Assembly (NCBI RefSeq): GCF_003315205.1
Contig: NZ_QNRR01000012.1
Span: forward strand, 62,001 to 126,000
DNA: 64,000 nt
DNA from: Roseimicrobium gellanilyticum
GTDB taxonomy: Bacteria > Verrucomicrobiota > Verrucomicrobiia > Verrucomicrobiales > Verrucomicrobiaceae
Direction of reading: 5' to 3'
Each line of letters begins with the position of its first letter. The stretch's first letter is position 1. The position numbers and the translations under genes were made by a program. Shown here piece by piece: positions 23,989-57,446 of the stretch. The notes under the pieces were generated by a model that had not been told where the DNA came from, searched no databases, and saw only the letters and a program-made list of their open reading frames with translations.

Positions 23989-24612
23989 TCACACCTTGAT
24001 GATCCCGCGCCGAATGGCTTCGGCAGTCGCTTGGGCGCGGTCATTCACGTTGAGCTTTTCCAGAATGTGGCTCACGTGCCGCTTCACCGTGTCCTCGGAA
24101 ATCTCGAACAACGCCGCGATTTGTTTGTTGGCGTGACCGTTGGCGATGAGCGCGAGGATTTCTCGCTCACGTGAAGTGATCGTGGCACTCTGTCGCAGAT
24201 TTGCGAGGCGTTGAGCGAGCTCCGCCGGCAGATATTCTCCGCCTGCGGCAACGCGCCGTAGAGCGGAGAGCAATTCATCGCGCAGGGCGGATTTTTGCAC
24301 GTAGCCCGCAGCACCGGCGTCCAGCGCTGCCTGCACTTCATCGTCGCGTGCGAAGGTGGAGTACACGAGGATGCGCGCCTGCGGATCGTGGGCACGGAGC
24401 GCAGCCGTAGCCTGCACGCCGCTCAGCCCGGGAAGCTGCAAGTCCATCAAGACTACATCCGGTCGCCTGCGCTGATATGCCTGCAGCACTTCGTCACCGC
24501 GCTTTGCCTCACCGATGACCACGATGTCACTCTCGACTTCGAGTGAGGCTGACAGGCCGCTGCGCACCACAAAGTGGTCATCCACGATGAGAATGGTCAG
24601 TGGAGTACTCAT
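23989..24612 (-). CDS. NarL-family response regulator
   Basis: The 207-residue protein starts at MSTPLTILIVDDH (ATG 24612). The receiver holds Asp11/Asp12, phosphoacceptor Asp57 in VVLMDLQLPG and a Lys near 107. The LuxR helix-turn-helix is at about 143-205 (ITSREREILALIANGHANKQIA). Its start overlaps the stop of the sensor kinase by four bases, so the two are a cognate pair. The target genes are not apparent; the neighbouring NHL gene is 86 nt downstream. Confidence 0.94.
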   Translation of the reverse strand: MSTPLTILIVDDHFVVRSGLSASLEVESDIVVIGEAKRGDEVLQAYQRRRPDVVLMDLQLPGLSGVQATAALRAHDPQARILVYSTFARDDEVQAALDAGAAGYVQKSALRDELLSALRRVAAGGEYLPAELAQRLANLRQSATITSREREILALIANGHANKQIAALFEISEDTVKRHVSHILEKLNVNDRAQATAEAIRRGIIKV

Positions 24613-26672
24613 GCAGAGAGAGATGCGAGGGAGATTTCCAAAGGTAATGCAATCTCCACGGTGGTCCCCTGGCCTGGGGTGGAGTGCCAACGCACAGTCG
24701 CATTGAGTTTTTCGCAGCGCTCTTCGATGCCGATGCATCCAAAGTGTCCGGCCTGGGCTCTGCGTGCCGTCGCAGGATCAAATCCGCAGCCATCATCAGC
24801 AACAGCCATCCGCAGATGCCCCTCTTCCATCTCCAGGGTGAGGTAGATATGGCGTGCGTGAGCGTGTTTCAGCGCATTGGTCACGGCCTCGCGAGCAATC
24901 ATCCTCAGATGATGCACGGTAAGCGATGGCAAAGGCGGCAGGGTAGCGGATGCCTTCAAGGTGAGAGCGGGGTCGCAGCCGCAGGGATGCTCCTCCACGA
25001 TGGTGCGCAAGGCCGCGGCGATATCCGCCAGCTCCGGCGCAGGCTCTCTCAACTCCGAGACGAGACTGCGCGTCTCGGCCTGCATTTGCGAGATCAAACG
25101 ACGCGAGGCCCGCAAGAGCTGGCCATTCTTCTCATCAATGCCGCGCGCCTGCACGCCTTCGATCCGGAGCGCGAGACCGGTGAGCCCCTGCTCCAGCGTG
25201 TCATGAAATTCACGGGCGATCCGCTGCCGCTCTTCGAGCGTGGCTTCATGCTCGATCTGACGTCGCAGCACTCGTGTCTGCCGTCGCACTTGCTGGCGCA
25301 ACGCGACAATCCAAAGGCTGGCAAGCATCACTACCAACAGCAGCACCCCCACCGCGAGCACAAGCCGTTGCGTCGTCCACCAGCCAGGCGTGTCGAGCAT
25401 CGTCACATCATCGGCCACGCGGCACCGCAAGCTCACCGAGCGCGGCCGTAGTTCCACCCCTGAAGCGGTATTCGACTCGACCATGCAAATGCCCGTGACT
25501 CGCATACGCGCTCCCGCTGGCAGCTCCTTGTCCAGCGGCGGCACTCTGGCGCGGATGGTCCTGCCATGATCCTGCAACACCAGCACATCCCCCTCTTCCG
25601 CCCGGAAGTGGCCGGACAGAACCGCTGTCACCGCGACGAGATCATTGTCATGGGCGCCACGCAAAAGCTCGTCAGCACTTACTTCGACCGCAGATGGCGA
25701 CTGCCCGGGCTCTTGCCGTGCAACGTTGGCGCTGACCAACGAGGCGCTGAAACGCTCCATCCTCGGGAAACCAATGACCTCGATACGGGCGCCGATGCTC
25801 AGCGACGTTGAAGGGAGGAGTTGCACACGCAATGCCGTCGCTTCATCGCGAATGAAGACCTGACCATCCGGGTAGGAGGCGAGGACCGTACCGGCCACGC
25901 GTACCCGATGCCCATCCGTACCTGACGCGCTGAAGGCAAGAAGACGGCTGCCAGAGATCACAGGCACTGCACTCTCCAAAGGCGCAGGCTCCAGCATCTG
26001 AAGACCACTCCAGTCATGCAACCACGCAATGGGCTGCACCAATTGGCGGCGCTGATTGATGCCACCCGAAGCGAGGCATTCGATACGCACCCGGCTGTCC
26101 ACCAACAGACGCTCATCTGGAGGCGCACAGATGCGAACTTCCAGCACATCGCTCCCCATCGCCAGCAACAGGATGGATCGGGACTCATCCGGTGTGGCCG
26201 TCACAGTCTGCACAATGCCTTCCACGGCGACGCGCTGGAAGAAATACCGCCCCGCTGCGAAGTCCGCATAAGTGGCAGAAACGGCAGGCGGCAACTCTTT
26301 GCTCCCCTTCTTTTCATATTGGATGAGTTCAATACCGGGAAGATACGAACCCGGAATGGTCGTGCCCTTTACCGCCACCTCATCACCGACGCGCAGGCTC
26401 CGCTCATTGCGACCGAGGAAATACGTCCCGGCCGTTTCGTCCTGGATGACCACGGCTCCATTGGGACCTTCGATGAAGACCACCGTCCCCTGCAACTCCA
26501 CCGGCAGTCTTCTGACTGCCGCTTCTGGAGTCAGTGAGCGCACCTCCCGTGCAGTCGTCAGCGTGGTCTCCGCACCAGAGGCTGTCGATATTCCCAGAAT
26601 GGCAACAATGCAAAAACAGAGCCGGTGAACCACATTCCTGCCGGGTGCGTTCATGGAAGGATTGGGAATCAT
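24609..26672 (-). CDS. HisKA_3-type sensor kinase with periplasmic OB-like domains
   Basis: This 687-residue protein has a signal-like N-terminus, an extracytoplasmic region (about 35-425) that appears to contain three repeated OB-fold-like units (GTVVFIEGPNGAVVIQDETA, GTVLASYPDGQVFIRDEATA, AVLSGHFRAEEGDVLVLQD), and a membrane helix near 429-451. A HisKA_3 dimerization domain follows with RIAREFHDTLEQGLTGL (His490). The HATPase C-terminal region has DDGCGFDP and GCIGIEERCEKL. It is the NarX/DesK type, partner of the overlapping NarL regulator. The OB-like sensor part suggests binding of an extracellular oligomer or ligand. Met7 (26654) is an alternative start. Confidence 0.92.
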   Translation of the reverse strand: MIPNPSMNAPGRNVVHRLCFCIVAILGISTASGAETTLTTAREVRSLTPEAAVRRLPVELQGTVVFIEGPNGAVVIQDETAGTYFLGRNERSLRVGDEVAVKGTTIPGSYLPGIELIQYEKKGSKELPPAVSATYADFAAGRYFFQRVAVEGIVQTVTATPDESRSILLLAMGSDVLEVRICAPPDERLLVDSRVRIECLASGGINQRRQLVQPIAWLHDWSGLQMLEPAPLESAVPVISGSRLLAFSASGTDGHRVRVAGTVLASYPDGQVFIRDEATALRVQLLPSTSLSIGARIEVIGFPRMERFSASLVSANVARQEPGQSPSAVEVSADELLRGAHDNDLVAVTAVLSGHFRAEEGDVLVLQDHGRTIRARVPPLDKELPAGARMRVTGICMVESNTASGVELRPRSVSLRCRVADDVTMLDTPGWWTTQRLVLAVGVLLLVVMLASLWIVALRQQVRRQTRVLRRQIEHEATLEERQRIAREFHDTLEQGLTGLALRIEGVQARGIDEKNGQLLRASRRLISQMQAETRSLVSELREPAPELADIAAALRTIVEEHPCGCDPALTLKASATLPPLPSLTVHHLRMIAREAVTNALKHAHARHIYLTLEMEEGHLRMAVADDGCGFDPATARRAQAGHFGCIGIEERCEKLNATVRWHSTPGQGTTVEIALPLEISLASLSA

Positions 26673-26748: not shown

Positions 26749-28401
26749 TTATTCTCTCGACTCGTCGGGGCTCTCGGCGTTGTGTGGCACGCTTCCTTCT
26801 GGGGCAGCAATTTCCGATACGAGCACTGCCGTGTCGGGAGCCTCGCCGGAATAGAACGCGAGGTAATGCGTGTCCCCGATCACGGTGGCGTTCACGTTGC
26901 CTGCATCAAACGAGATCTGACTGCCGGTAGCGATGGCATGGGAGACCGGCCACTTGAGCGGCTGGTCAAATACGCTGTCCGGGTCCACCACCCGGCGTCG
27001 CAGGATGCCGCCCTTGCCACGCTGATAGTAGTAGTTGCTTAGCAACCCGGTTTTGGTGTCAAGGATGAGACTTGGTGTGGACGCCATGACATCGCCGATG
27101 TTCGTTTTTGAGCGTGTCCACGTGGCACCGTAGTCTCTGGAGACCAGTTGAAATTGCGCTCGCTCCGAGGTGGTGCCTCCCAGCTCTGTCCGCGCGATGG
27201 CGAGGATTTTGCCATCGCCGAGGTACACCGCCGCAGGCTCCGTGGGCCACTGGGCCTTGGTCAATTTGGACTCCACGGTCGTTTGAGTCCAGGTCGCTCC
27301 ATTGTCACTGCTGGTCACCGTGCCCCACGAGCTATTGGGGCCGTCACCATAGTTTCCTTCGAACCACAGTGCCATGAGCCCGACTGTGGGCACTGCGAAG
27401 ACATCGGTGATCTGCATGGGAGACACAGCGAGTTTCGGCGTGGCCACGAGCGTGAAAGTCACCCCGTCCGTGGTGCGGTAGAGATCATGAATCCGCTCCG
27501 GCCCTACCCGACGCACCCAGAGGAGCATCGACCCTGCAGCATCCAGACCCTTCCCCACAGGCACCTCGCCATAGCCCGGCGTGTTGGCGACCACGGTCTC
27601 CGGTGTCCAGGTTTTTCCTCCATCCGTGGAAGTCCGCGCATAAACGGCGCGTGCGTCTTCACCAATCGTGTGTGCCTTGCCCCGGCTGTACACGCAGACC
27701 AGTTTTTCTCCGATGGCCTGCATCATCGGCCATGAGTTGTAGCCACTTACATTCTGCACCACATGTGGCTTCGCAGGAGCTTCCACTGGCGTCACCTTCA
27801 CCACGGCCAAGCCCGTTGGGCTGGTGAAAGAGTCGGCGGGATCCGCAGGCTCGCGCTGCACCCGCACCCACAGAGGCGCATCTGGTTCCACCTCATAGTA
27901 GGATTCCAGCAAGATCGTCCGGGTATGAAAAGGAGCGGTGGGCAGCGGGGCACGCACCGGGTAGCCTTGGTAGTGCCGTTTCGTGAATGGCGCATCCTCC
28001 TCCATCTGCGACAGATGGACCCGATAAACGTCCTCATACTTGGGACTCGTCGCCGTGTCCGTCGTGGTCACCACAATCTCCACCTTCACGGCAGCGCAGC
28101 CACTCGGGAGACCGGTAACGAGACCAGCAACAGACTGCCCCGGAGTGCCCCCCGACAAGGACCACACCGGAATCTGTATGGACCCACTCGACATGAGCGT
28201 GAGCGAAGGCTGGCCCGTCGCGATCGACATGTTGTTGGCGGTCAGATAGACAGGTCGATCTTCGCGCCGATCTGGAATTCGGCTTTCGCTTCCTCCGGTC
28301 TTTGCCGGATGTTTGCTGTGGGGTGTGACGACAGGTTCGCTGCCCCCCAAGCAGGTTACGGTGGACACAAGCAGCGCGACATATGGAAGTTCAAGTCTCA
28401 T
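26749..28401 (-). CDS. BNR/Asp-box sialidase-fold secreted protein
   Basis: The 550-residue protein has a signal peptide (about 1-22), a beta-rich N-terminal domain to about residue 200, and a propeller-like C-terminal part with Asp-boxes STDGGKTWT and SSDNGATWT, plus a third weaker one (SRDYGATWT). This is the sialidase/BNR fold. I could not place the arginine triad or the nucleophile Tyr with confidence, so enzymatic activity is not claimed. It is isolated between the sensor kinase (leftward as well) and a non-coding stretch. Confidence 0.78.
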   Translation of the reverse strand: MRLELPYVALLVSTVTCLGGSEPVVTPHSKHPAKTGGSESRIPDRREDRPVYLTANNMSIATGQPSLTLMSSGSIQIPVWSLSGGTPGQSVAGLVTGLPSGCAAVKVEIVVTTTDTATSPKYEDVYRVHLSQMEEDAPFTKRHYQGYPVRAPLPTAPFHTRTILLESYYEVEPDAPLWVRVQREPADPADSFTSPTGLAVVKVTPVEAPAKPHVVQNVSGYNSWPMMQAIGEKLVCVYSRGKAHTIGEDARAVYARTSTDGGKTWTPETVVANTPGYGEVPVGKGLDAAGSMLLWVRRVGPERIHDLYRTTDGVTFTLVATPKLAVSPMQITDVFAVPTVGLMALWFEGNYGDGPNSSWGTVTSSDNGATWTQTTVESKLTKAQWPTEPAAVYLGDGKILAIARTELGGTTSERAQFQLVSRDYGATWTRSKTNIGDVMASTPSLILDTKTGLLSNYYYQRGKGGILRRRVVDPDSVFDQPLKWPVSHAIATGSQISFDAGNVNATVIGDTHYLAFYSGEAPDTAVLVSEIAAPEGSVPHNAESPDESRE

Positions 28402-28630
28402 GGCTCACGCACTCTTCCACTGGCAACTGCCCGCCGCAATTTCCATGGAATCACACGATCGTGCGCAAAAGACGGTCCACAGATCAGATGCGACCTGCGG
28501 CGCCCAATTGACTGGTCGCACAGGGTTTGACTTACGATTCCAGTACCTCTTCTCTGATCACTCGAACGGCAATCACCGCCTGCCACATGGAGATCACGAT
28601 GTTGGCGATGAGCAAAGGCAGAATTTTTGA
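28402..28630. other. Intergenic stretch without a recognised gene
   Basis: Neither strand offers a convincing coding frame here. The sequence lies upstream of the sialidase-fold gene (leftward) and probably holds its promoter, but no hexamers stand out. Confidence 0.4.
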
Positions 28631-45439: not shown

Positions 45440-45688
45440 GGGTACCAGATCATATGAGCTCAAACACAATCCTTTGCGTTGGATACGCAATGGGATGTTC
45501 AAAGACTCCTACGCGAGCGACGTGCCTCGTATTATGCGCGAACATCATCAAAAAGTTATGAGCTCGGATAAGCACGCATTGATGCCGTGTTGGAAGTTCT
45601 CCGACTTTTCCCTTCCCCATGGCTCGCGATTCCCTTCCCACTTCCCGCAATCGGCGTTCCTTCATCAAAAGTTCAGGAGCAGCTCTGG
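45440..45688. other. Intergenic stretch before the ceramidase-like gene
   Basis: Without a convincing gene on either strand. It contains the upstream region of the leftward ceramidase-like gene and the degraded end of the phospholipase C-like remnant. Confidence 0.4.
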
Positions 45689-46003
45689 TTACTGGCCTGA
45701 AGCGGCCGCTCCAAAGATCTCGTTCCTGGCTTCGAGCTTGACCACGAACTACTCGCGTGCGGAATCCAAAGCGCCGTCCGCATACAACTGGTAGGGCAGC
45801 GAACAGGAGGGCCGCACTCCCGGTTCCTGTCTTGGCAGCCACGGAGATTCGTCCGGCCGGTTTTTGCATTGCTCATTCTCCTCAGGAGTCAAAACCTTGA
45901 AGTTGGCAGGAGCTTCTTTGAACCTGGCGCGATGGGCAACCAGGAATGCCAAACCTCCCCGCATGTTCCCGAGGCGGCTTACAACCATGTTGGCTGTGCG
46001 CAC
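45689..46003 (-). pseudogene. Remnant of a phosphocholine-type phospholipase C C-terminus
   Basis: The minus-strand frame reads AHRARFKEAPANFKVLTPEE, then PWLPRQEPGVRPSCSLPYQLYADG, a TAG stop, then FVVKLEARNEIFGAAASGQ and TAA. The QEPGxRPSxxLPYxL and VKLEA..IFGAxAxG pieces resemble, from memory, the C-terminal region of bacterial phospholipase C. The internal stop, the missing upstream body and the abrupt ending mark it as decayed. It stops exactly where the GntR operator/leader segment begins (46010). Confidence 0.45.
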
Positions 46004-46009
46004 CGAAAA

Positions 46010-46050
46010 GTGTCGACACTATTAGTAACATTGGACAATAGTGTTGACAC
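46010..46050 (+). promoter_or_regulatory. Paired GntR-type operator before the first DUF1549 gene
   Basis: A perfect palindrome GTGTCGACAC (46010-46019) and a near copy GTGTTGACAC (46041-46050) are 31 bases apart centre to centre. The same pair with the same spacing occurs before the GntR gene (51190-51230). A TTGACA hexamer overlaps the second site, so binding would block a promoter. Confidence 0.75.
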
Positions 46051-46134
46051 TTTGCGCGTCTTACTCCACCGCTGTCACAACCCTTTTGCTCCACGATGCC
46101 TCAGAGGTCCTCCCCAACCCGCCGCAATCCAGCC
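46041..46134 (+). repeat. Leader repeat, copy A
   Basis: By hand count this segment differs from 51221-51314 at 18 of 94 positions with no indel, and spans the second operator half, leader and first 13 codons of the downstream gene. Confidence 0.8.
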
Positions 46135-49100
46135 AACGTTCTGCGTTGGCTCGGCCTGGCTGTGTTAGCGTTCGCTTCGGTGCGAACTGCTTGTTCCGCA
46201 GAAGCGGAGTTGGTGGGGACTCGGTGGAATTTCGATGGGCAGGAGGTTTCCGGGACGTGGCAGGGAAAAGGAGTTTGCGTAGTTCCGGGACCGCACGGGC
46301 CAAGTTATCCAAAATTTCCGACGACCAATCAGGCTATGGAATTGGCGGGGAAGGATGCGGCGCTGCTGGTGCCGGATGCGCCAGGGCTGAGGTTCAAGAA
46401 GGGAGACGCGATCACCCTTGAGGCATGGGTGAAGGTGCGGTCGATTCGTGAAGGTCAGATGATCTATCTCGTAGGCAAGGGGCGCAATGGATCGAAGGAA
46501 TTTGGCGACAACAACCAAAACTACGCACTGCGGCTGAAGGGGGTGAACGGTCGGGGGGCAATCGGTTTTCTATTCACGGCGGGAGCGACGGATGGACAGC
46601 CACTGAGCTGGCACCGCTGGTGGAGTACGGATGGCTTCCAGATCGACACAGGCTGGCACCATGTCGCACTGACCTATGTCTTTGGCCAAAGGGATAGCCT
46701 GCGCGGTTACATCGATGGCGCATTGGTGAAGGGCACGTGGGATCTCGGCGGCGCGACGGATCGCGGGCCAGTGAGCGATGGTGATCTGACTGTTATCGGC
46801 ACCGGCTACTCACGGGGTCCGGCGGAAACTTTGGATGGCTGGCTCGACGAAGTCGCCATTCATCGCACGGCGCTATCAGCCGCAACGCTGAAAACGCATT
46901 TCGCAGTGGCGCCGGCTCCAGCGCCGGAGATCGACCGCAGCAAGCTGCCTGCAGAGCGCGTGCGTGTGGAACTGTGTGAAAAGGGAGTGCCGGAAAATGC
47001 CATGTGGCCTGTGGAAACTCCGACAGCGACGGAGTCGTATCTCGAGGAGGTCTTCGGCTTTTCCGAATTACCGCAGCGTTATGTCGCGACTGGTGTGCGC
47101 GGTGATCGCTCCGTGGCCTTCCTGCTGAGGGCTTCAGCACTGGTGCGGCTGCCAAAGGGAACCAATCGCCTGCTACTACGCGGGCGCGGCGCTTCGAGGT
47201 TGTTCATCGATGGGCAGCCAGTGTTGCAGACACCTTTCCCGACACGGGGAAAAGGTGGTTTCGCGCTGCTCACGGAGCAGAGTCAGTATTTGGATCTCGG
47301 CCCCGATTTTCGCTTCGCGCCTCCGGGCAATCGGGAAGCGACGGGGACTTTCGTCGGAGATGGTGAGGAGCATCTGGTGGTCCTGGAGACAGTCGTTGGA
47401 GGAGGCACCCAGGCGCGCCGCTATCGGCCCGAGTTAGGTGAGACCGTGGTTGCGATTTCTCCTGAAGGTTCTACCGCCTGGTCGCTGCTCTCGCCCGGCA
47501 ATCGCCAGGTGCCATACACGGACGCTGGCTGGACGACTTACGCTGCGGAACGGAGCGCGCACTTTGCGCAGGTGAATGCGGAAGCCCGTGCCGCGTGCCG
47601 TCAAGAGGGCTCAGCCTACTGGAGCACCCGGCGCAAGGCAGCTGCGCAGTGGCTGGCCTCAACACCCGAAGTGCCCATACCGGAGCTGCCCTCTGGTTTT
47701 CCTGCCAATAACGCCATCGACCACTTCCTCGCGGCACGCATCGCCGACATCGCGCAGGATCACTCGGCGACGCCGAAGGATGGTGTGGATTTTTACCGCG
47801 ACGTGCAGCCCATCCTCGAAGCGAAATGCTACGGCTGTCATCAAGGCGGCAAGGTGAAGAGCGGGCTGCGGCTCGATACTCGCGAGGCAGCGCTCCAGGG
47901 CGGAGAATCCGACGGGGCCGCAATTGTCCCTGGCAAGCCGGCAGAGAGTTCGCTCTTCCTCCGCACGACCGCAGACCCGGATGAAATCATGCCGCCCAAG
48001 GGCAAAGGCGAACCGCTCAATCGCGCAGAGCTGTCCACCCTCGAACGCTGGATCGCTGAGGGCGCGCATTGGCCGGACCTGCGCGTCTCGACGTTGAAGA
48101 TGACACCTCTCACAGACGACCTCACCTTTCTCAGGCGCGTGACGCTCGACACGGTGGGCGTGGTGCCGGGTGAGGAGGAGATTCGCGCATTCCTTGCAGA
48201 CTCGTCGACAGACCGGCGCGCCAAAGTGATCGAACGCCTGCTCGCGGACCCGCGCTGGGCGGATCGCTGGATGGGTTACTGGCAGGATGTGCTCGCGGAG
48301 AATCCGAACATTCTCAATCCCACGCTGAACAACACGGGCCCGTTCCGCTGGTGGATCTATGAGTCGCTACGCGACGACAAGCCGATGGATCTTTTCGTGA
48401 CCGAGCTGATCCGCATGCAAGGCAGCGTGCTCTTTGGCGGACCCGCAGGCTTCGGTATCGCCGCGCAAAATGATGTGCCGATGGCGCAAAAGGCGATGAT
48501 CGTCAGCAGTGCCTTTCTCGGTGTGGAGATGAAGTGCGCGCGTTGCCACGATTCACCAGCGAACCTCAGCCGGCAGCAGGACCTTTTCGAGATGGCAGCG
48601 ATGCTGGCGAAGAAGCCGATCAAGCTGCCCGCGACGAGCAGTGTGCCGCTGGATCGCATTCACCAGGGCGGGCGAAAGCCGCTCATCGAGATCACGCTCG
48701 CTCCCGGCAGCATCGTGGAGCCGAAGTGGCCGCTTGGACAGTTCAGCTCCGAAGCCACGGTGGCCACACTGACGCCTCCATCCGGAGATTCGCGTGAGCG
48801 GCTCGCCACACTGATCACGGCACCTCAGAATACGCGCTTCGCGCAGGTGATCGTGAATCGTTTCTGGCAGCAGCTCATGGGACGCGGGCTGGTAGAACCC
48901 GTGGAGGATTGGGAGAAAGGGCAGCCTTCGCATCCCGAGCTGCTCGCGTGGCTGGGCCGGGAGTTTGTGCGTTCCGGCTATAGCGCCCGGGCCATTCAGC
49001 GGCTCATCCTCAATTCGCATGCCTACCAGCGCCAGGTGGATGCCGCGCTTCCTGCGCAGGAGCCGCTCTTCGTCTCGCCTGCGCCACGTCGACTGGCTGC

Positions 49101-49815
49101 GGAACAGATTGTCGATGCGCTCTTCGCCGCCTCAGGCAAACCCTTTGCGCTGGAGGAAATGAGCCTCGACCTCGATGGCGACCGCAGCTCTGCGGAATCA
49201 ATTGTGCTCGGCCAGCCACGCCGGGCCTGGATGCTCGCATCCACTTCCAACGAACGCGACCGCCCAAGTCTCATGCTGCCGCGCATCCAGGCTGTGGCAG
49301 ATGTCATGGAAGCCTTTGGCTGGCGCGGTACACGGGTGGACCCTGTGAGCCGCCGAGAGACATCGCCGAATGTGCTTCAGCCCGCTATCCTCTCGAATGG
49401 GATCGTCGGTGGTTGGCTTACCCGGCTCAGTGATGATCATGCACTGGTGCAGGTGGTCCTGGAAGATCAGCCTGTCGAAGCACTCGTGGACCGGCTATTT
49501 CTTCGGTTGCTCACCCGCGCTCCCTCGGCGGCAGAGCGCGAGCTCTACGTCTCGCTGCTCAGCCAGGGGTACAATGAGCGCGCAATCCCCGTGGAGAAGC
49601 TTCCTGCGCTCAAGGCTGCTCCCCGCGAGCGACCGAGATATATCAGTTGGTCCAATCACGTGGATCCTGCGGCCAATGTCCTGCGCGAGGAGCAAGCTGA
49701 ACGGGCGCGGCATGGCGACACACCTACGGCCCGGCTGGATGCCGACTGGCGTGAACGTTTCGAGGATGTGCTGTGGGCGCTGATCAATGCGCCCACCTGG
49801 GTCACCGCTCCCTAG
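46096..49815 (+). CDS. DUF1549/DUF1553 cytochrome-type protein with LamG domain
   Basis: This 1239-residue secreted protein has a signal peptide after an unusual basic start (MPQRSSPTRRN), a LamG-like domain near 60-275 and a planctomycete-type cytochrome segment with CYGCHQGG near residue 577. DUF1549 follows at about 680-840, including a second CARCHD near 814, and DUF1553 to about 1200. Such proteins have haem c-binding motifs and are linked to polysaccharide or sulfated-sugar use in Planctomycetes and Verrucomicrobia; the reaction is unknown. The first 11 residues match those of the GntR regulator, because the leader region is duplicated. The DUF1501 gene follows after 35 nt. Confidence 0.9.
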   Translation: MPQRSSPTRRNPANVLRWLGLAVLAFASVRTACSAEAELVGTRWNFDGQEVSGTWQGKGVCVVPGPHGPSYPKFPTTNQAMELAGKDAALLVPDAPGLRFKKGDAITLEAWVKVRSIREGQMIYLVGKGRNGSKEFGDNNQNYALRLKGVNGRGAIGFLFTAGATDGQPLSWHRWWSTDGFQIDTGWHHVALTYVFGQRDSLRGYIDGALVKGTWDLGGATDRGPVSDGDLTVIGTGYSRGPAETLDGWLDEVAIHRTALSAATLKTHFAVAPAPAPEIDRSKLPAERVRVELCEKGVPENAMWPVETPTATESYLEEVFGFSELPQRYVATGVRGDRSVAFLLRASALVRLPKGTNRLLLRGRGASRLFIDGQPVLQTPFPTRGKGGFALLTEQSQYLDLGPDFRFAPPGNREATGTFVGDGEEHLVVLETVVGGGTQARRYRPELGETVVAISPEGSTAWSLLSPGNRQVPYTDAGWTTYAAERSAHFAQVNAEARAACRQEGSAYWSTRRKAAAQWLASTPEVPIPELPSGFPANNAIDHFLAARIADIAQDHSATPKDGVDFYRDVQPILEAKCYGCHQGGKVKSGLRLDTREAALQGGESDGAAIVPGKPAESSLFLRTTADPDEIMPPKGKGEPLNRAELSTLERWIAEGAHWPDLRVSTLKMTPLTDDLTFLRRVTLDTVGVVPGEEEIRAFLADSSTDRRAKVIERLLADPRWADRWMGYWQDVLAENPNILNPTLNNTGPFRWWIYESLRDDKPMDLFVTELIRMQGSVLFGGPAGFGIAAQNDVPMAQKAMIVSSAFLGVEMKCARCHDSPANLSRQQDLFEMAAMLAKKPIKLPATSSVPLDRIHQGGRKPLIEITLAPGSIVEPKWPLGQFSSEATVATLTPPSGDSRERLATLITAPQNTRFAQVIVNRFWQQLMGRGLVEPVEDWEKGQPSHPELLAWLGREFVRSGYSARAIQRLILNSHAYQRQVDAALPAQEPLFVSPAPRRLAAEQIVDALFAASGKPFALEEMSLDLDGDRSSAESIVLGQPRRAWMLASTSNERDRPSLMLPRIQAVADVMEAFGWRGTRVDPVSRRETSPNVLQPAILSNGIVGGWLTRLSDDHALVQVVLEDQPVEALVDRLFLRLLTRAPSAAERELYVSLLSQGYNERAIPVEKLPALKAAPRERPRYISWSNHVDPAANVLREEQAERARHGDTPTARLDADWRERFEDVLWALINAPTWVTAP

Positions 49816-49850
49816 CGCCACTTACACCTCCGCCACTGCCGAATTCGCCC

Positions 49851-51152
49851 ATGCGCACTTCCTCCGCTCTTCAGCACACTCGCCGCTCTTTCCTTCGGCG
49901 TACCGCCGCTCTCGCTGCCGCGCCGCTCTTCCCGCACGTGACGAGCGCTGCTGAGCCTGCACCGCTGCCCTTGGGCAAGGCTGAGCATTGCATCTTCATC
50001 TGGCTCGGGGGCGGCATGTCGCAGATCGACACCTTCGACCCCAAGCGTCGCGGCAATCCCAAGGCCTCTCCACGAATCGCAGGCTCGGACTATGCGGCCA
50101 TCGACACCGCGGTGCCAGGTGCGCAATTTACCGAGCATCTGCCCAAGCTCGCACGACTCGCCGAGCGGATGACCGTATTGCGCTCGGTGCATCATCATGT
50201 TGTGGACGAGCACGCGTTTGCCACCAATCTCGTCCACACTGGACGCATGATCAGCGGCAGCACCCTCTATCCAGCCATCGGCTCCGTGGTCGCGCAGCAG
50301 CGTGGCGCCATTGATCCCAGCGTACCTGCCTACATGCTCATGGGCCTGCCGAATCCCAGCCGCGGGCCGGGATTCCTCGGTGCGCGCCACGGCTATGTCT
50401 ATCTCCTCGATACGGAATCCGGGCCATCGGGATTTGCGCGCCCTGAGTGGGTGAACCTGGATCGCGCAGCTCGGCGTCAGGCCTTGCTGAAACCGCTGCT
50501 GGAGCAGGCGCCCGCAGGCACCATGGCGGGAGAGTACGAGCAGGCCCAACGCGAAGCCTTGCGGCTCGCCGGGCCGGGCTTCATGCGGCACTTCAAGCTC
50601 GCCGAGGAGCCTTCGGCACTGCGAGAGCAATACGGTGGAGAGTTCGGTCAGCGCTGCCTGCTCGCCCGGCGGCTCGTTCAGGCCGGGGTGCGCTTCATCG
50701 AGGTCTCGCATAATTTGAACTTCATCAACGGCACCGGCTGGGACACCCACAATGAGGGCCAGATCAACCAGCACACGCTCATCCGTGATCTGGACACAGC
50801 GGTCTCGGCACTGCTTGTCGATCTGGAGGAGAAAAAGCTGCTCGATCGTACGCTCGTCGTCATCGCCACCGAGTTCGGACGTCCGGCCGAGTTCGATGGG
50901 CGCGGGGGGCGTGGCCACCAGGGCACGGCCTTCAGCATGGTGCTTGCTGGCGGAGGCCTGCGGCACCGCGGCGTGTATGGCGTGACCGATGAACTTGCGA
51001 AGCAGATTGTGGAAAACCCGGTGTCGATTCCGGATTTTCACGCCACCATTCACGTCGCGCTGGGCATCGATCCGCGGCGCTCGCTGATGGATGGCTCACG
51101 CCCGATCCCAATCACCGAGGAAGGTCGGCCAATTGCGGCACTCTTTGCCTGA
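49851..51152 (+). CDS. DUF1501 Tat-exported protein (first copy)
   Basis: The 433-residue protein starts at ATG 49851, so that a twin-arginine leader (HTRRSFLRRTAALAAAPLF) begins the protein. It belongs to DUF1501 (HCIFIWLGGGMSQIDTFDP and FGQRCLLARRLVQAGVRF are typical), an alkaline phosphatase-like fold. It lies 35 nt after its DUF1549/1553 partner, the standard pair. Export through Tat suggests a folded or metal-containing protein in the periplasm. Confidence 0.88.
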   Translation: MRTSSALQHTRRSFLRRTAALAAAPLFPHVTSAAEPAPLPLGKAEHCIFIWLGGGMSQIDTFDPKRRGNPKASPRIAGSDYAAIDTAVPGAQFTEHLPKLARLAERMTVLRSVHHHVVDEHAFATNLVHTGRMISGSTLYPAIGSVVAQQRGAIDPSVPAYMLMGLPNPSRGPGFLGARHGYVYLLDTESGPSGFARPEWVNLDRAARRQALLKPLLEQAPAGTMAGEYEQAQREALRLAGPGFMRHFKLAEEPSALREQYGGEFGQRCLLARRLVQAGVRFIEVSHNLNFINGTGWDTHNEGQINQHTLIRDLDTAVSALLVDLEEKKLLDRTLVVIATEFGRPAEFDGRGGRGHQGTAFSMVLAGGGLRHRGVYGVTDELAKQIVENPVSIPDFHATIHVALGIDPRRSLMDGSRPIPITEEGRPIAALFA

Positions 51153-51189
51153 TGGGCTGAATTTCAGCGTGCCTCCAGCGCACAAAATT

Positions 51190-51230
51190 GTGTCGACACT
51201 ATGGGCTCACTTACACTAAAGTGTTGACAC
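51190..51230 (+). promoter_or_regulatory. Paired GntR-type operator before the GntR gene
   Basis: GTGTCGACAC at 51190-51199 and GTGTTGACAC at 51221-51230 have the same 31-base geometry as 46010-46050. The position implies autoregulation by the GntR protein encoded from 51276. Confidence 0.75.
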
Positions 51231-51314
51231 TTTTCACCCACTACTCCACCACTGCAGCAACCCTTTTGATCGACCATGCCTCAAAGGTCTTCCCCACCCC
51301 GCCGTAATCTAGCC
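51221..51314 (+). repeat. Leader repeat, copy B
   Basis: Counterpart of 46041-46134. It covers the operator half, leader and codons 1-13 of the GntR gene. The GntR gene's residues LAAEILSRLR that follow are native to the family. Confidence 0.8.
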
Positions 51315-52058
51315 GCTGAGATCCTCTCCCGCCTCCGAGCCGACATCATCTCCGGTGCTTGCAAGCCTGGAGAGGCACTCGCCGAGCCGGTGCTGGCGCG
51401 ACGTTTCGGCGTGAGCCGCGGGCCGGTGCGTGAGGCAATGATCGAATTGGAGCGCGCGGGTTTGGTGCAGTTTGAACCCACGGGCCGGACGCGCGTCCGC
51501 ACAATGGAGGAAAAGGACATCGCAGAGATCATCGAAGCGCGTGTGGCGCTGGAGTCGATGGGTGCGCGGCTGGCAGCGATCCGCTGGAGCGGCGAACACT
51601 CACGCTGGATTGAGAAAAACCTCATTGCGCAGGAGAAGGCAGCGGGCATCACGGAATTCCGAAAACTGGATGTGGCGATGCATGAGTACATCATGCAGTG
51701 CAGCGGCAATGAACGGCTGGCGGCGCTCTGGCAGAACATCCGCTGGCAATTCGAGATGGCGCTGGCCTCAGTCGACCGCTTGCAAGGGAAGCAGGCGTCA
51801 GAACTGCACCGCTTCGCCATCGAAGGGCATCGCAAGGTACTGGCCGCACTGGCCGCGCGTGAGCCCGGGATCGCGGCGAGCGCCATGGCCTGGCACATCA
51901 CGAGCACACTGGAGTGGACCGTACCCGGCACGGTGGACAACCTCTACCAGTTCCCGGCCTTCACCGGCGCGACGGAGCCGCGAGACTGGCGCAAGTCCAG
52001 TGAGGGAGCGTCCGGGGTACGCACTCGCGCGGGCTCGAAGGGGAAAAATCTGCGCTGA
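51276..52058 (+). CDS. GntR-family regulator with FCD domain (FadR-type)
   Basis: The 260-residue protein has an N-terminal winged helix (about 12-75; LARRFGVSRGPVREAMIELERAG) and a C-terminal all-helical FCD domain (about 90-220). Regulators of this type respond to small organic acids such as sugar acids. The paired operator lies 46-86 nt before its start. It lies in the middle of the island, 25 nt before the second DUF1549 gene, and probably represses both transcription units until its ligand appears. Confidence 0.93.
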   Translation: MPQRSSPPRRNLAAEILSRLRADIISGACKPGEALAEPVLARRFGVSRGPVREAMIELERAGLVQFEPTGRTRVRTMEEKDIAEIIEARVALESMGARLAAIRWSGEHSRWIEKNLIAQEKAAGITEFRKLDVAMHEYIMQCSGNERLAALWQNIRWQFEMALASVDRLQGKQASELHRFAIEGHRKVLAALAAREPGIAASAMAWHITSTLEWTVPGTVDNLYQFPAFTGATEPRDWRKSSEGASGVRTRAGSKGKNLR

Positions 52059-52083
52059 AACGGGAGCAGCATCCTCGCAAAAA

Positions 52084-55000
52084 ATGAACAGGTTGCGTCT
52101 CCCCGCTCTCCTTCTCCCGCTGGCTTGCGCGGCCCTGCCGGCGTTGGCGGCCGATGATGCATCGCGAGCTGCAGTGGCCTTCTTTGAAAAGGAAGTGCGG
52201 CCTATTCTGGTGAACCGGTGCTTCGACTGCCATAGCGAGAAGAAGCAAAAAGGTGGCCTGCGTGTGGATCACCTCGACTACCTCAAGGTGGGTGGTGACA
52301 CCGGTCCGGCGCTGGTGCCAGGTGCCCCGGAAAAATCTGCGCTGATCGAGGCAATACGCTATACGAGCGAAGACTTCCAGATGCCGCCAAAGAACAAAGG
52401 CGGAAAGATGCCCGAGGCGGAAGTCGCCATCCTCGAAAAGTGGATCCTGATGGGCGCGCCGTGGCCCAATGACGGCGCGAAGCAGATCGCGGCGCCTGTG
52501 GGCGGATTCACTGAGGAGCAACGCGGCTACTGGGCCTTCCAGCCGCTGGCCGTGGTTTCACCACCATCGGTGGACGGGAGCTGGGCGCGCAATGACATTG
52601 ACCGGTTCATTGCGGAAAAGCTGGCCGCGCAGGGACTCACGCCAGCTCCGGAAGCGGACCGGCGCGAATTGGTGCGCCGTGTGTATTTCGATCTCCACGG
52701 CCTGCCGCCAACGCAAAGGCAGATCACCGATTTTGTGAATGACCAACAGCCGCGGGCGTACGAAAAGCTCATCGACGAAATGCTCGCCAGCCCGCGCTAT
52801 GGCGAACGCTGGGGTCAGCACTGGCTCGACCTCGTGCGCTACGCGGAGAGCGATGGCTACAATCAGGATGCTTATCGTCCCGCCGCCTGGCCATATCGCG
52901 ATTACGTCATCCGTTCGCTGAACGAGGACAAGCCTTATGATCAGTTTGTCCGTGAGCAGCTCGCAGGCGATGAGATGGCGCCGGACGATCCAGACGTGCT
53001 CATCGCCACCGCCTTCCTCCGGCACCCGGTGTATGAATACAACCTGCGCGATATACGCGGCCAGTGGGATCTCATTCTCACTGACCTCACGGATACTACA
53101 GGTGAGCTCTTCCTTGGACTGAGCATGGGCTGCGCGCGCTGCCACAACCACAAGTTCGATCCCATCCTGCAAAAGGACTACTACCGCCTGCGCGCCTTCT
53201 TCGAGCCGGTGCATTGGCGCGATGACCTGAAGCTGGCAACGCCGACGGAGAAGCATGAGTTTGCGAAAAGGCAAGCCGCCTGGGAAGAGGCCACAACGGC
53301 GATCCGCACGCGGATCGAAGCGCTGACGAAAACCGCCATCGATATACGAGTGGAGCGCTGGCGCGCCAGTTTCTCCGAGGATCTGCAGGCGATGACCCGC
53401 AAACCTGCCGGACAGCGTGACGCGCTGGAGAAGCAACTCGCCGGGCTTTGCGAGCGCCAGTTGACCTACGCACGCGGCGAATTCAATCCGGCAAAGGACC
53501 TCACGTCCGACGAGGCCAAATCGGAATACAAGGTGCTGCAGGAGGAACTGAAGAAACTCGATCACCTCCGACCAAAAGCATTGCCGGAGGCATTCGTGGC
53601 CACGGATGCCGATGCTGTCGCACCAGTCACACGACTGCAGACACGCCAGGGAGAACAGATAATCGAACCGGGATTCGTCAACATCGTGGATCCAAAAGCG
53701 CCCCAGATCATCCCGACGGCGACCTCCACCGGACGTCGCAAAGCGCTCGCAGATTGGATCACGCGCCCGGACAATCCGCTCTCAACGCGCGTGATTGTGA
53801 ATCGTGTGTGGCAGTATCATTTCGGACGCGGCATCGTCGCCACAGCGAGCGATTTTGGCAAGCTGGGCGAGCTGCCGACGCATCCGGAACTGCTCGATGC
53901 ACTCACGCGACAGTTCATCGCGGGCGGCTGGCGCTTCAAGGCACTGCACCGTGAAATTCTGCTTTCGGCCACCTATCGCCAGACAGCGCGGCGCGAGCCT
54001 GACGAGGCGGCTGTGAAGGTCGATCCTTTGAATCGTTTTCTCTGGCGCTTCCCACCACGTCGCCTCGATGCGGAAGAGGTGCGTGACGCACTGCTGGCGG
54101 TGAGCGGCGAAATCGATCTGACTGCCGGTGGTCCTGCCGCAGATGGGAATGGCACGCGACGCTCGATTTACACCCGCAAAAAACGCAACAGCCCGAATGA
54201 GCTGCTCCGTGCACTCGACATGCCGGCGGGGTTTGCCAGTGCCTCCGAACGTCAAAGCACCACCACACCGACACAGGCCCTGCAATTGCTCAATGGCGAG
54301 TGGGTGCTCGGCCGCGCGCGCAAGCTCGCCTCCCAAGTGCGAACTCCAGACGAAGCGTGGCTCGCGGTGCTGGGTCGCCCACCGACGGAGCGGGAACGCA
54401 CACAGGCGGAGGATTTTCTCAAAAAGCGGGCGGGCGCAACTCCCCTGGCGGACCTTGACCCCACCGCGAATGGACCAGCTGGAGGAGAATTCAGAATCAA
54501 CAGCGCGCGCGAACGATTGGTGGTGACAACCAGCGAAAAGGAAGGCGATGAATTCACCGTCGAGGCCATCACGCGTCTCGACACGATCGACTCAAACGCC
54601 GAGCCACGCACGCTGGTCGCCCATTGGAATGGTGGCAAGGACAGCCAGGAATCCTTTGGCTGGAGCATCAACGTCACCGGCACCAAATCGCGCTACCAGC
54701 CACGCAACATCCTGGTGCAAGTAGTCGGCGAGGATGACAATGCAAACCTCGGCTATCAGGTGCTGGTTTCGAACCTGCGGCTTGAACTCGGCCGCCGCTA
54801 TTACCTCGCCGTCCGGTTTGCCCCCGCGCGTCGCACGCTTGAGTTTACGCTGCGTGATCTCGACACGCCCGGCGCCACTCTGCAATCTGCCACTGTGTCG
54901 ATGGAGAGCCTCGCGAAGCTCAGCGAGGGAGCTGCACCGGTGGTGCTCGGCGGCATGAGCAAGCGCCTGCCACCTCGGCAATGGGATGGCCAGATCGAGG

Positions 55001-55227
55001 CCCTCCGTATTGTCCCTGGCCGCCTCTCCGACGACCACCTCCAAGCCGACCCCGCCCAGTGGAAAACGGGCATCGTCCTCTGGCGCTCCACCGATCCACC
55101 GGGCGCGGCCTTCGCCTGGAGCGGTTCAGATGCGCCTTCTTCCGACGCCAACGACCCCGCCCGGCAAGCGATGAATGATCTCTGCCAAATGCTGCTGACC
55201 TCGAACGAGTTTTTCTACCTCCACTGA
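52084..55227 (+). CDS. DUF1549/DUF1553 cytochrome-type protein with LamG-like insert
   Basis: The 1047-residue protein starts at ATG 52084 with a signal peptide (MNRLRLPALLLPLACAALPA). A planctomycete-type cytochrome segment has CFDCHSEKK near residue 45. DUF1549 follows (about 170-370, with CARCHN near 349) and then DUF1553 (about 590-1045). Residues about 850-1010 contain a LamG-like stretch (LGRRYYLAVRFAP, QWDGQIEALRIVPG) inserted before the last DUF1553 segment (DLCQMLLTSNEFFY). The DUF1501 gene follows after 11 nt. Confidence 0.9.
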   Translation: MNRLRLPALLLPLACAALPALAADDASRAAVAFFEKEVRPILVNRCFDCHSEKKQKGGLRVDHLDYLKVGGDTGPALVPGAPEKSALIEAIRYTSEDFQMPPKNKGGKMPEAEVAILEKWILMGAPWPNDGAKQIAAPVGGFTEEQRGYWAFQPLAVVSPPSVDGSWARNDIDRFIAEKLAAQGLTPAPEADRRELVRRVYFDLHGLPPTQRQITDFVNDQQPRAYEKLIDEMLASPRYGERWGQHWLDLVRYAESDGYNQDAYRPAAWPYRDYVIRSLNEDKPYDQFVREQLAGDEMAPDDPDVLIATAFLRHPVYEYNLRDIRGQWDLILTDLTDTTGELFLGLSMGCARCHNHKFDPILQKDYYRLRAFFEPVHWRDDLKLATPTEKHEFAKRQAAWEEATTAIRTRIEALTKTAIDIRVERWRASFSEDLQAMTRKPAGQRDALEKQLAGLCERQLTYARGEFNPAKDLTSDEAKSEYKVLQEELKKLDHLRPKALPEAFVATDADAVAPVTRLQTRQGEQIIEPGFVNIVDPKAPQIIPTATSTGRRKALADWITRPDNPLSTRVIVNRVWQYHFGRGIVATASDFGKLGELPTHPELLDALTRQFIAGGWRFKALHREILLSATYRQTARREPDEAAVKVDPLNRFLWRFPPRRLDAEEVRDALLAVSGEIDLTAGGPAADGNGTRRSIYTRKKRNSPNELLRALDMPAGFASASERQSTTTPTQALQLLNGEWVLGRARKLASQVRTPDEAWLAVLGRPPTERERTQAEDFLKKRAGATPLADLDPTANGPAGGEFRINSARERLVVTTSEKEGDEFTVEAITRLDTIDSNAEPRTLVAHWNGGKDSQESFGWSINVTGTKSRYQPRNILVQVVGEDDNANLGYQVLVSNLRLELGRRYYLAVRFAPARRTLEFTLRDLDTPGATLQSATVSMESLAKLSEGAAPVVLGGMSKRLPPRQWDGQIEALRIVPGRLSDDHLQADPAQWKTGIVLWRSTDPPGAAFAWSGSDAPSSDANDPARQAMNDLCQMLLTSNEFFYLH

Positions 55228-55238: not shown

Positions 55239-56645
55239 ATGCCCTGCCATCGCTATGATCACCCCCATTCGCGCCGCGACTTTCTACAAAGTGCCGGAGG
55301 CGGCTTCGGGGCAGTCGCCCTGGCCGCACTCCTCGGCAACACAGCGCAGGCCGCACCCCTGAAGCTGCCGCGTCGCGCTGTCAAAGCGAAGAGCGTCATC
55401 TTCCTCTTTATGGAAGGCGGGCCGAGCCATCTCGACACTTTCGACTACAAGCCGCTCCTCAACCAACTCGCTGGGCAATCGCTACCCTCCAGCTTCAAGC
55501 CCCCGCTCACGGCCGCAGGCGAAGGGAAATCGCCGCTGCTGGCGTGCCAGCGCACCTGGAAGCAGTACGGCCAAGGCGGTCTGTGGATCTCCGACTGGTT
55601 CAGCGAAGTCGCACGGCACGCCGACGATCTCGCCGTCATCCGCTCCTGCGCCTCCAGTGGCATCAACCACGCGGGTGGTGTCTGCTCGATGAACACCGGC
55701 GCGCTTTTCGGCGGACGCCCTTCGCTCGGAGCCTGGGCTTCGTACGGACTCGGCACGGAAAATCAAAATCTGCCGGCCTTTGTCGTCATCAAAGACAGCG
55801 AATCCTCCGTGGTGAACGGCGTGCGCAACTGGGGAAGCGGTTTCATGCCCGCGGTGTATCAGGGCGTCGAATTCAGTTCCGAAGGTACGCCGATCAAGTT
55901 CCTCGACAATCCCGAAGGGGTCGATCGCCAGCGCCAGCGCGACAAGCTCGACTTTCTCGGTGCCTTGAACCGTGACTTCAATGCCAGCCGCGCCAGTAAC
56001 ACTGAGCTGGATGCCCGTATCAAGGGCTTCGAACTCGCCTACCAGATGCAGGCTGAGGCACCCGGTGCCGTCGACCTCCGCCAGGAGAGCAAGGCCACCC
56101 GCCAGCTCTATGGCATGGATGACAAGGCCACCGCCACCTTCGGCCGGAATTGCCTGCTCGCCCGCCGGCTCGTCGAAAGCGGTGTGCGCTTTGTACAGCT
56201 CTACAGCGGTGCTGGCAGCAAGTGGGACAGCCACTCCGGCATCGAAACCAATCATTCCAAGCTATGCCACTCCGTGGACAAACCTATCGCCGGTCTCCTC
56301 ACCGATCTCAAATCGCGCGGCATGCTCGAAGAAACCCTCGTCATTTGGGGCGGTGAATTTGGCCGCACTCCGATGAGCGAGAAGGGCGACGGACGCGATC
56401 ACAATCCCACAGGCTTCACCATGTGGATGGCCGGCGGTGGTGTGCAAGGCGGCCGGACCTACGGCTCGACTGACGAACTCGGCCTCTATGCCGAGGAAGA
56501 CCGCCTCCACGTCCACGATCTCCACGCGACGATCCTCTATCTGCTTGGCCTCGACCATACCCAACTCATCTACTCCTACAAAGGCCGCCCCGAGCGCATC
56601 GACCAGAACGAAGGGCACCCCTACACCCGCCTGCTCAGTGCCTGA
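55239..56645 (+). CDS. DUF1501 Tat-exported protein (second copy)
   Basis: The 468-residue protein has a twin-arginine leader (HSRRDFLQSAGGGFGAVALA) and DUF1501 signatures (FLFMEGGPSHLDTFDYKP, WGGEFGRTPMSEKGDGRDH). It is the partner of the preceding DUF1549/1553 gene, paralogous to 49851-51152. The HNPTGFTMWMAGGG region is typical of the family. Confidence 0.9.
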   Translation: MPCHRYDHPHSRRDFLQSAGGGFGAVALAALLGNTAQAAPLKLPRRAVKAKSVIFLFMEGGPSHLDTFDYKPLLNQLAGQSLPSSFKPPLTAAGEGKSPLLACQRTWKQYGQGGLWISDWFSEVARHADDLAVIRSCASSGINHAGGVCSMNTGALFGGRPSLGAWASYGLGTENQNLPAFVVIKDSESSVVNGVRNWGSGFMPAVYQGVEFSSEGTPIKFLDNPEGVDRQRQRDKLDFLGALNRDFNASRASNTELDARIKGFELAYQMQAEAPGAVDLRQESKATRQLYGMDDKATATFGRNCLLARRLVESGVRFVQLYSGAGSKWDSHSGIETNHSKLCHSVDKPIAGLLTDLKSRGMLEETLVIWGGEFGRTPMSEKGDGRDHNPTGFTMWMAGGGVQGGRTYGSTDELGLYAEEDRLHVHDLHATILYLLGLDHTQLIYSYKGRPERIDQNEGHPYTRLLSA

Positions 56646-56673: not shown

Positions 56674-56720
56674 AAATGATACACCGCTTCCTCAGTGCAC
56701 AAGTTGCACCGTTTTTTATC

Positions 56721-57446
56721 ATGTCCGACACCACTCCTCCCAGCCAACGTCCCCTTCAGTTTGGCACCTGGCTGCAAACCGGCTCCTCCATCGTTGCTGA
56801 GCTCGCCGACGCCTGCGGCTTCGACTGGTTGCTCATCGACCTCGAACATGGCTGCGGCACTGACATGACCGTGCTGCCGCAACTCCAAGTCATCCGCCGC
56901 GCCGCCGCCATCGTCCGCGTGCCTACAGCGCAGCCCGACCTCATCGCACGTGCCCTCGACTGGGGTGCGGCAGGCATCATGGTGCCGATGGTCTCCACCG
57001 CAGAAAAAGCCGAGGCCTGCGTGCGTGCCATGCACTATCCCCCGCGTGGCGATCGCGGCCTGGCAGGAATGGTGCGCGCCTACCGCTACGGACTCGAGAA
57101 GGAACCCGCCACGCCGCATTTCTTCGCTCAGATTGAAACCATCGAAGCGGTGAAAAACGCCCGCGCCATCGCTGCCGTGGAGGGCGTGGACGTTCTCTTT
57201 GTCGGCCCCATGGATTTGCAATTGAACCTCAAGGCATATCCGGAGCACGCCACCCTCGACTACGTCGCCTGCCTCCGTGAAGTCGCCACCGCCTCAAAGC
57301 TCGCGGGCAAGGCCTGCGGTATCTTGCTGAAGCAAACCGAGGATATCAGCTCCTACCACGAACTGGGCTTCACCCATCCCGCCGTGGAGACCGACATTAC
57401 CTTTTTGCGAGACAGTTACCTCCGGGTCCTGTCGCCTTGGAAGTGA
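56721..57446 (+). CDS. HpcH/HpaI-type aldolase (2-keto-3-deoxy acid family)
   Basis: The 241-residue protein starts at ATG 56721. Motifs of the class II pyruvate aldolases are visible: DLEHG at 40-44 with the general base His43, Arg67 in VRVP, QIET at 137-140 with metal ligand Glu139, and VGPMDL with metal ligand Asp165. These enzymes cleave 2-keto-3-deoxy sugar acids or related 4-hydroxy-2-oxo acids to pyruvate and an aldehyde. Its presence under a GntR regulator suggests that the island handles a sugar acid. Confidence 0.93.
   Translation: MSDTTPPSQRPLQFGTWLQTGSSIVAELADACGFDWLLIDLEHGCGTDMTVLPQLQVIRRAAAIVRVPTAQPDLIARALDWGAAGIMVPMVSTAEKAEACVRAMHYPPRGDRGLAGMVRAYRYGLEKEPATPHFFAQIETIEAVKNARAIAAVEGVDVLFVGPMDLQLNLKAYPEHATLDYVACLREVATASKLAGKACGILLKQTEDISSYHELGFTHPAVETDITFLRDSYLRVLSPWK

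Follow-up and report, generated by a model that had tools for sequence, protein, structure and literature searches.

Most known cases of promoter capture come from laboratory selections or have been deduced from genome-wide comparisons. Regulatory switching, or horizontal regulatory transfer, is reportedly to be credited to Oren et al. 2014, and promoter propagation, treated by Matus-Garcia et al. 2012, is said (going by the title of that work) to concern similar promoter regions before different genes. In the cases of promoter capture that we draw on here, the his genes of Salmonella and the citrate transporter of E. coli, the event was a deletion or a tandem duplication (PMC11111574), and regulatory switching is described as the replacement of an upstream region by a non-homologous one (PMC9944727). 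Here we describe a two-gene operon, D1549A-D1501A (46096-51152), that has probably come under the promoter and the paired operator-like boxes of a neighbouring gene, gntR, which encodes a GntR/FCD regulator. The operon lies in a window of 64,000 nucleotides of Roseimicrobium gellanilyticum (contig NZ_QNRR01000012.1, positions 62,001 to 126,000, forward strand); coordinates are those of the window unless another contig is named.

The gntR product contains the GntR helix-turn-helix domain (PF00392, E 1.3e-16) and the FCD domain (PF07729, E 1.2e-17) of the FadR subfamily, several groups of which are reported to have an operator with GT and AC 2 nt apart and whose members are said to bind carboxylic acids and other small ligands (PMC4494728). 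PSCyt/PSD proteins, the class to which the D1549A product belongs, are presented as being of unknown function, a role in carbohydrate metabolism having been suggested from carbohydrate-binding modules (PMC5615132). We found no description of the locus or of its operator in the open-licence literature searched.

The start of gntR recurs in front of D1549A

The first 13 codons of D1549A and the DNA upstream of them recur at the start of gntR. Over 94 positions (46041-46134 and 51221-51314), the two copies differ at 18 without any indel, which is exactly what a first-pass annotation of this DNA had counted by hand; the distance of 86 nt from the operator to the ATG that it gave for both copies (start of box 1 to ATG, 46010/46096 and 51190/51276) was confirmed by the measured coordinates, and both proteins do begin MPQRSSP.RRN. 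That annotation was also right in that the duplicated segment includes the coding start, to the extent of 13 codons, but not in its limits: the segment reaches upstream to 45998 and 51178, so that the full direct repeat measures 137 nt (45998-46134 / 51178-51314), with 33 differences (76% identity). The copies differ at 4/12 positions before box 1, 0/10 in box 1, 11/21 in the spacer, 0/10 in box 2, 13/45 in the leader and 5/39 in the first 13 codons, and identity in the flanks is at background (38/60 positions differ in the 60 nt before the repeat and 40/60 in the 60 nt after it).

Chance similarity of the two leaders was rejected: the best of 200 base-shuffled 94-mers gave 47/94 matches against 12 kb of the window, versus 76/94 for the real pair. 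A genome-wide family of promoter or leader repeats was rejected as well, the genome having two copies only. With a 125-nt leader query against the whole genome (7.93 Mb), the second copy was recovered at E 1e-21 and the next match at E 0.25; the paired-box pattern occurs at exactly two places (none for a reversed-pattern control), and a 12-base box, AGTGTYGACACT, at three, all of them within the two repeat copies. An order-wide DNA search (386 genomes, two candidates scored per genome) matched the leader in 16 genomes at E 0.01, the best match outside the source genome being gntR of G065 (E 2.4e-6), and uncovered no third copy of it.

Outgroups support a transfer from gntR to D1549A

We compared 16 GntR orthologues, namely 15 genes from 68 family genomes (at least 52% identity to the window GntR) and one further gene, from G121, that an order-wide search added. 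Of the 16, 13 have paired TGT(C/T)(G/A)ACA boxes in the 130 nt ahead of the start; their spacing is 29-32 nt in 12 of these 13 and 13 nt in G066, whose true start is unsettled. PRRNL follows the start in 14/16, the exceptions being PRPNL (the closest gene, from G067) and LRNIA (G066). The box-pair pattern matches 11 of the 68 family genomes, each time just upstream of a GntR gene: ten have one such place, and only the source genome has two.

The close D1549A orthologues belong to G067, G065 and G064 (72% identity) and to G012 (68%), the next match being at 54%. They start MPMRSRF(V/A)LLFLSVPGWLG or MTVSSLSLCFSAVPGRLG (MPMRSRF... or MTVSSLS...), and the box pair and the RRN start are both absent from all four. 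In the 45 nt before the ATG, they match the window D1549A at 10-14 positions, versus 32 for the gntR leader; over the first 13 codons, they match at 12-14 of 39 nt, versus 34 for gntR. They become alignable with the window protein from about residue 15 on, and the repeat stops at codon 13 (46134). No match outside the window in a D1549A profile search reaches residues 1-13 (lowest start, 14), and the box pair is absent from the 29 other DUF1549-family loci taken from that search (part of its matches), one of which, L086, starts at a contig end with almost no upstream DNA and tests little. The other genome of the genus, G061, has no close counterpart of either gene (best GntR match 39%, best D1549A match 50%).

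Since the GntR orthologues carry the boxes and PRRNL and the D1549A orthologues do not, the outgroups support a leader that went from gntR to D1549A, in keeping with the first-pass proposal that a structural gene had been brought under the regulator's promoter. The checks suggested with that proposal point the same way: in alignments with relatives the leader stands ahead of the GntR gene, not of D1549A, the orthologous DUF1549 proteins lack the MPQRSS start, and a shared N-terminus, which had been named as a sign of old common ancestry, was not found among the DUF1549 orthologues compared.

In the stretch from box 1 through codon 13, 29/125 positions (0.232) separate the two copies, and their distances to the leader of the closest GntR gene of G067 are 0.376 and 0.40. 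In the GntR tree, the window gene and this G067 gene pair with a support of 100/100. With the copies closer to each other than to the G067 leader and the two genes paired in the tree, the capture is younger than the split between the window and G067 regulators, yet not recent. These distances also make it highly improbable that the similarity is old, i.e. that both genes always had the leader and the relatives lost it from D1549A. Although counts alone would allow for loss elsewhere, the layout being confined to one genome, the D1549A orthologues of two other genera share a different upstream element and have other starts.

Three further observations concern the relatives. G067 (L044) has two GntR genes of different subtype, at 8923-9663 and 15397-16065, which flank D1549B-D1501B-aldolase, are about 82% and 64% identical to the window GntR, respectively, and have a box pair each. 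Six genomes of another genus (L050, L051, L052, L054, L055 and L057) have a DUF1549 paralogue, about 40% identical to D1549A, directly behind the aldolase gene; it seems to have joined the GntR cluster by position and not by promoter capture. Upstream of D1549A in L066 and L067 (G064 and G065), several near-copies of a unit of about 100 nt containing GAACCGAGACGGTTCTTCTAC were noticed by eye.

The duplicated segment carries candidate operators overlapping a promoter-like site

Each copy contains two operator-like boxes 31 nt apart. By their sequence, the boxes (GTGTCGACAC) fit the FadR-subfamily palindrome with a GT-N2/3-AC core. Box 1 contains a -35-like TCGACA in each copy, and a -10-like hexamer extends into box 2; this promoter-like site is the only one in each copy region and has the same place in both, 0.1 being expected in shuffles. 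Among the GntR orthologues, a -35 in box 1 combined with a -10 of at least four matches (hexamer gap, 16-19 nt) is found in 10/16, and the -10 extends into the second box in eight of these ten; note that, in these counts, the second box of G050 is not intact and the boxes of G066 are too close. No box lies within 130 nt before D1501A, D1549B, D1501B, the aldolase gene or the gene after it.

GntR bound at both boxes would cover the promoter and would thus repress the two promoters together until a ligand, probably a carboxylic or sugar acid, is bound. From these sequence features we infer a circuit in which GntR would repress its own gene, the D1549B-D1501B-aldolase genes behind it and, via the copy, D1549A-D1501A.

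Alternatively, the copy could be a by-product of rearrangement without regulatory effect, as the 24% divergence between the copies might suggest. We regard this as quite unlikely: the copy retains both boxes at an unchanged spacing together with intact promoter-like hexamers, and no start codon of the D1549A frame precedes the copied ATG. None of the 20 box positions differs, compared with 33/137 positions overall (P 0.0025, in a test chosen post hoc).

An older element is missing from the operon

In G064, G065, G067 and G012, the genes after D1549A are D1501A and those for a sensor kinase and a response regulator, and a conserved palindromic element, CGCACGATCGTGTGAT, starts 77-79 nt before the D1549A ATG. 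This 16-mer is present in 6/68 family genomes, once in each. In the window, a counterpart is absent from 45501-46096, even with up to five substitutions allowed; the CGCACGATCGTGTGAT copy that the window does contain stands about 18 kb from D1549A, before an operon encoding a BNR-repeat protein, a sensor kinase and a response regulator.

The older element being missing at D1549A and the GntR boxes being present there, a two-component system probably gave way to GntR in the control of the operon. The older control that was lost would probably have been a LuxR-type response regulator reading the CACGATCGTG palindrome.

The identity of this reader is suggested by paralogous operons. G064, G065 and G067 have a second BNR-kinase-regulator operon, whose variant element, CCCACTATGGTGTGAT, is three substitutions away from CGCACGATCGTGTGAT. 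The DNA-binding helices of the window regulator, HANKQIAALFEISEDTVKRHVSHILEKL, are identical to those of G012 and one position away from the first (D1549A-linked) type of G064, G065 and G067, while the second type reads QSNKRIAA...EDTVKRHVTHILEKL; the element of the window operon is of the first type, like the helices of its regulator. The type of element thus follows that of the helices, in support of the view that the element is the operator of the regulator, in a set of closely related relatives that offers few independent changes. As a separate observation, two paralogous kinase-regulator operons within one genus carry the elements CACGATCGTG and CACTATGGTG, which track the differences between the regulator helices (elements compared: L174:4764, L175:7544 and L176:6858 with window position 28450).

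The first residues of GntR may serve as the front of a secretion signal

The N-terminus of D1549A consists of MPQRSSPTRRNPANVLR, with a net charge of +4, followed by the core WLGLAVLAFASV and then by the small residues ACSA, identified by eye. Its sequence thus has the features of a Sec signal: a positive n-region, a hydrophobic core and small residues at the cleavage position. The best 12-residue hydropathy is 2.16 for D1549A, 2.14 and 2.48 for two of its orthologues and 0.70 for GntR, in which the same first residues have no hydrophobic core behind them. With the gntR codons joined in frame, the basic N-terminal residues of GntR would serve as the n-region of a signal peptide, and the gntR segment would have replaced the operon's own promoter, start codon and roughly its first dozen codons.

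Taken further, one rearrangement would have both switched the operon from two-component control, which answers to an outside signal, to GntR control, which answers to an inside metabolite, and recast the opening residues of a DNA-binding protein as the front of a secretion signal. The boxes, the promoter and the basic N-terminal arm would then form one portable package, conferring co-regulation as well as export on a secreted neighbour. We hold this extended proposal to be evenly balanced between right and wrong.

A tandem-duplication junction would be the simplest route to the present map

In G012, G064 and G065, D1549A-D1501A already neighbours gntR: D1549A precedes gntR in the same orientation, and the kinase, the regulator and one further gene fill the roughly 4 kb that separate D1501A from gntR. 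This order in three relatives makes for a layout that suits a duplication junction. A tandem duplication running from codon 14 of D1549A to codon 13 of gntR would form the join in one step and would set D1549A-D1501A between two copies of the gntR leader; later loss of the first D1549A copy and of the kinase and regulator genes would give the present map. We infer this route as the simplest molecular one; it is consistent with how PMC11111574 presents promoter capture through tandem duplication. The first-pass annotation spoke of the copying of the regulator's promoter and start region; its direction holds, while the event was probably the formation of a rearrangement junction, not the copy-and-paste of a promoter.

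Two other histories would lead to the same join. In one, which is possible though doubtful, a second gntR arose upstream of D1549A by duplication and then lost everything from codon 14 on, in a deletion that ran into the start of D1549A; present-day regulation would be the same as after a tandem duplication. The join is tight and in frame, as such a deletion could leave it, and the G067 cluster, with two GntR genes 6.5 kb apart, shows that more than one regulator gene can sit there, but the second of these is only 63-66% identical to the window GntR and stands behind the aldolase gene, not near D1549A, and, at E 1e-6, a search of the window with GntR detects no further piece of such a gene. 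In the other, which is unlikely, D1549A-D1501A was inserted into the start of gntR and the repeat is a target-site duplication. The repeat does flank the pair exactly, copy one ending at codon 13 of D1549A and copy two beginning 25 nt after the D1501A stop. However, known transposons leave target duplications far shorter than 137 bp, no inverted pair borders the two genes in a repeat search of 45700-56700, no transposase is found among the eight proteins scanned around the pair, and the pair already stands beside gntR in the three relatives.

Just upstream of the captured copy, a short frame at 45752-45937 (minus strand) begins at the edge of that copy and matches, at 47-52% identity, an inner stretch of a long protein of G061, G064, G065 and G019 (867-949 codons as open frames), which we take, from its sequence, for a phosphocholine-type phospholipase C. 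This remnant of 84 residues matches no Pfam family. It suggests that the edge beside the captured copy has been rearranged.

Observations that weigh against the capture and the switch

Several observations count against the capture of the gntR leader by D1549A, or against the switch of control that would have followed. The captured layout is known from one genome and, by box-pair patterns, was not found in the other 67 family genomes. Three of the 16 GntR orthologues (G027, G050 and G022) have one intact box each and lack an intact second box, and the spacer between the boxes is strongly diverged between the two window copies (11/21). A tblastn search of the window (E 1e-6) returned no piece of a first D1549A copy, nor a second GntR, and so gave no direct trace of the tandem-duplication route, of which no intermediate was found either. 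At the protein level, the MPMRSR starts of G064, G065 and G067 have M, P, R and S at the same positions as MPQRSS; because the DNA matches the window at only 13-14/39 over the 13 codons, we read this likeness as a coincidence, though one that makes the fusion point uncertain by a few codons. In addition, one paralogue, from G043 and 40% identical, aligns in tblastn all the way to residue 1, the alignment crossing a PQR..PT likeness that lies upstream of the apparent start, MTLRTT, where there are no boxes; we read this one as chance.

The remaining points concern the older control. The CGCACGATCGTGTGAT copy of G033 lies inside a response-regulator coding region, and is probably there by chance. 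The BNR-kinase-regulator operon of the window is syntenic with the relatives' second kinase operon (BNR proteins 75-77% identical), and we therefore dropped the idea that it is the old D1549A locus minus D1549A. Its kinase is 63-64% identical to the second type versus 61-62% to the D1549A-linked type of G064, G065 and G067, and its regulator, over the full length, is 74-75% identical to the second type, 70-72% to the first type of these three genomes and 79% to that of G012, the nearest. With the synteny taken into account, the regulator helices and the operon element of the window are still of the D1549A-linked type.

Features of the locus

The positions of the features discussed are collected in Table 1. 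Elsewhere in the window, 39828-43901 (plus strand) encodes a large protein whose two long halves resemble each other and which has a PEP-type sorting signal at its C-terminus (both recognized by eye).

Table 1. Positions, strands and basis of assignment of the features in the window
Feature	Position	Strand	Basis
Captured copy: boxes 1 and 2, promoter-like region, leader and codons 1-13 of D1549A	45998..46134	+	137-nt repeat
Box 1 of captured copy, GTGTCGACAC	46010..46019	+	identical in both copies
Sigma-70-like promoter, captured copy: TCGACA, 18 nt, AATAGT	46013..46042	+	motif scan
Box 2 of captured copy, GTGTTGACAC	46041..46050	+	identical in both copies
First 13 codons of D1549A, gntR-derived (MPQRSSPTRRNPA)	46096..46134	+	34/39 nt identical to gntR
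D1549A, captured gene 1: Laminin_G_3, PSCyt1, DUF1549 (PSCyt2), DUF1553 (PSD1)	46096..49815	+	Pfam, orthologues
D1501A, captured gene 2: DUF1501 protein	49833..51152	+	Pfam; adjoins D1549A in G012, G064, G065, G067
Source copy: boxes 1 and 2, promoter-like region, leader and codons 1-13 of gntR	51178..51314	+	137-nt repeat
Box 1 of gntR, GTGTCGACAC	51190..51199	+	box pattern
Sigma-70-like promoter, gntR: TCGACA, 18 nt, TAAAGT; overlaps both boxes	51193..51222	+	motif scan
Box 2 of gntR, GTGTTGACAC	51221..51230	+	box pattern
gntR: GntR/FCD (FadR-subfamily) regulator	51276..52058	+	Pfam
D1549B: PSCyt1-DUF1549-DUF1553, behind gntR	52084..55227	+	Pfam
D1501B: DUF1501 gene behind gntR	55239..56645	+	Pfam
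HpcH/HpaI-type aldolase behind gntR	56676..57446	+	Pfam
Response regulator, LuxR-type (GerE) DNA-binding domain; candidate reader of older element	23989..24738	-	domain search
Sensor histidine kinase (HisKA_3/HATPase_c)	24609..26672	-	domain search
BNR-repeat protein, first gene of operon with older element	26749..28401	-	domain search
CGCACGATCGTGTGAT element, only copy in source genome, 64 nt before BNR gene	28450..28465	-	16-mer search

Comparison with known systems

One natural case thus displays donor, recipient, fusion region, older element and new element within 64 kb, and relatives preserve another state, which makes this an unusually well-resolved natural promoter capture, in one genome. 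The growth of a regulon via the regulator's own promoter becomes directly testable, and two PSCyt/DUF1549/DUF1501 operons of unknown function gain a shared candidate regulator and an aldolase partner.

Unlike promoter propagation, which we know by title, the locus has two copies, tied to a regulator and its neighbour. It resembles the described promoter captures in that a gene was joined to the promoter of an adjacent gene by rearrangement: a donor promoter segment stands before another gene, the outgroups lack it there, and a junction joins the donor promoter to the recipient gene. It differs from the cases given in PMC11111574 in being an old and natural event, in drawing on the promoter of a regulator itself, and in a join that includes 13 donor codons encoding a predicted signal-peptide n-region. 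With regulatory switching, as presented in PMC9944727, it shares the non-homologous replacement of an upstream region, the older element, kept in 4/4 orthologues, being gone; here, in contrast, the replacement is not confined to the intergenic region but takes in 13 codons, donor and recipient share one locus, and a candidate operator can be named for the old state as well as for the new. The regulator itself is like those of the FadR subfamily in its GntR and FCD domains and in the GT and AC 2 nt apart (PMC4494728), and the locus has its own features in two whole palindromes, mostly 29-32 nt apart, in a promoter-like sequence overlapping both, and in target genes of the PSCyt/DUF1549/DUF1501 class, for which no function is given in PMC5615132. 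The finding is a promoter capture combined with a start-codon capture, of a kind already known; what is new is that one conserved element has been exchanged for another, and the regulator's own promoter as donor, the inclusion of a coding part and the clear view of the states before and after set it apart as a variant that merits testing.

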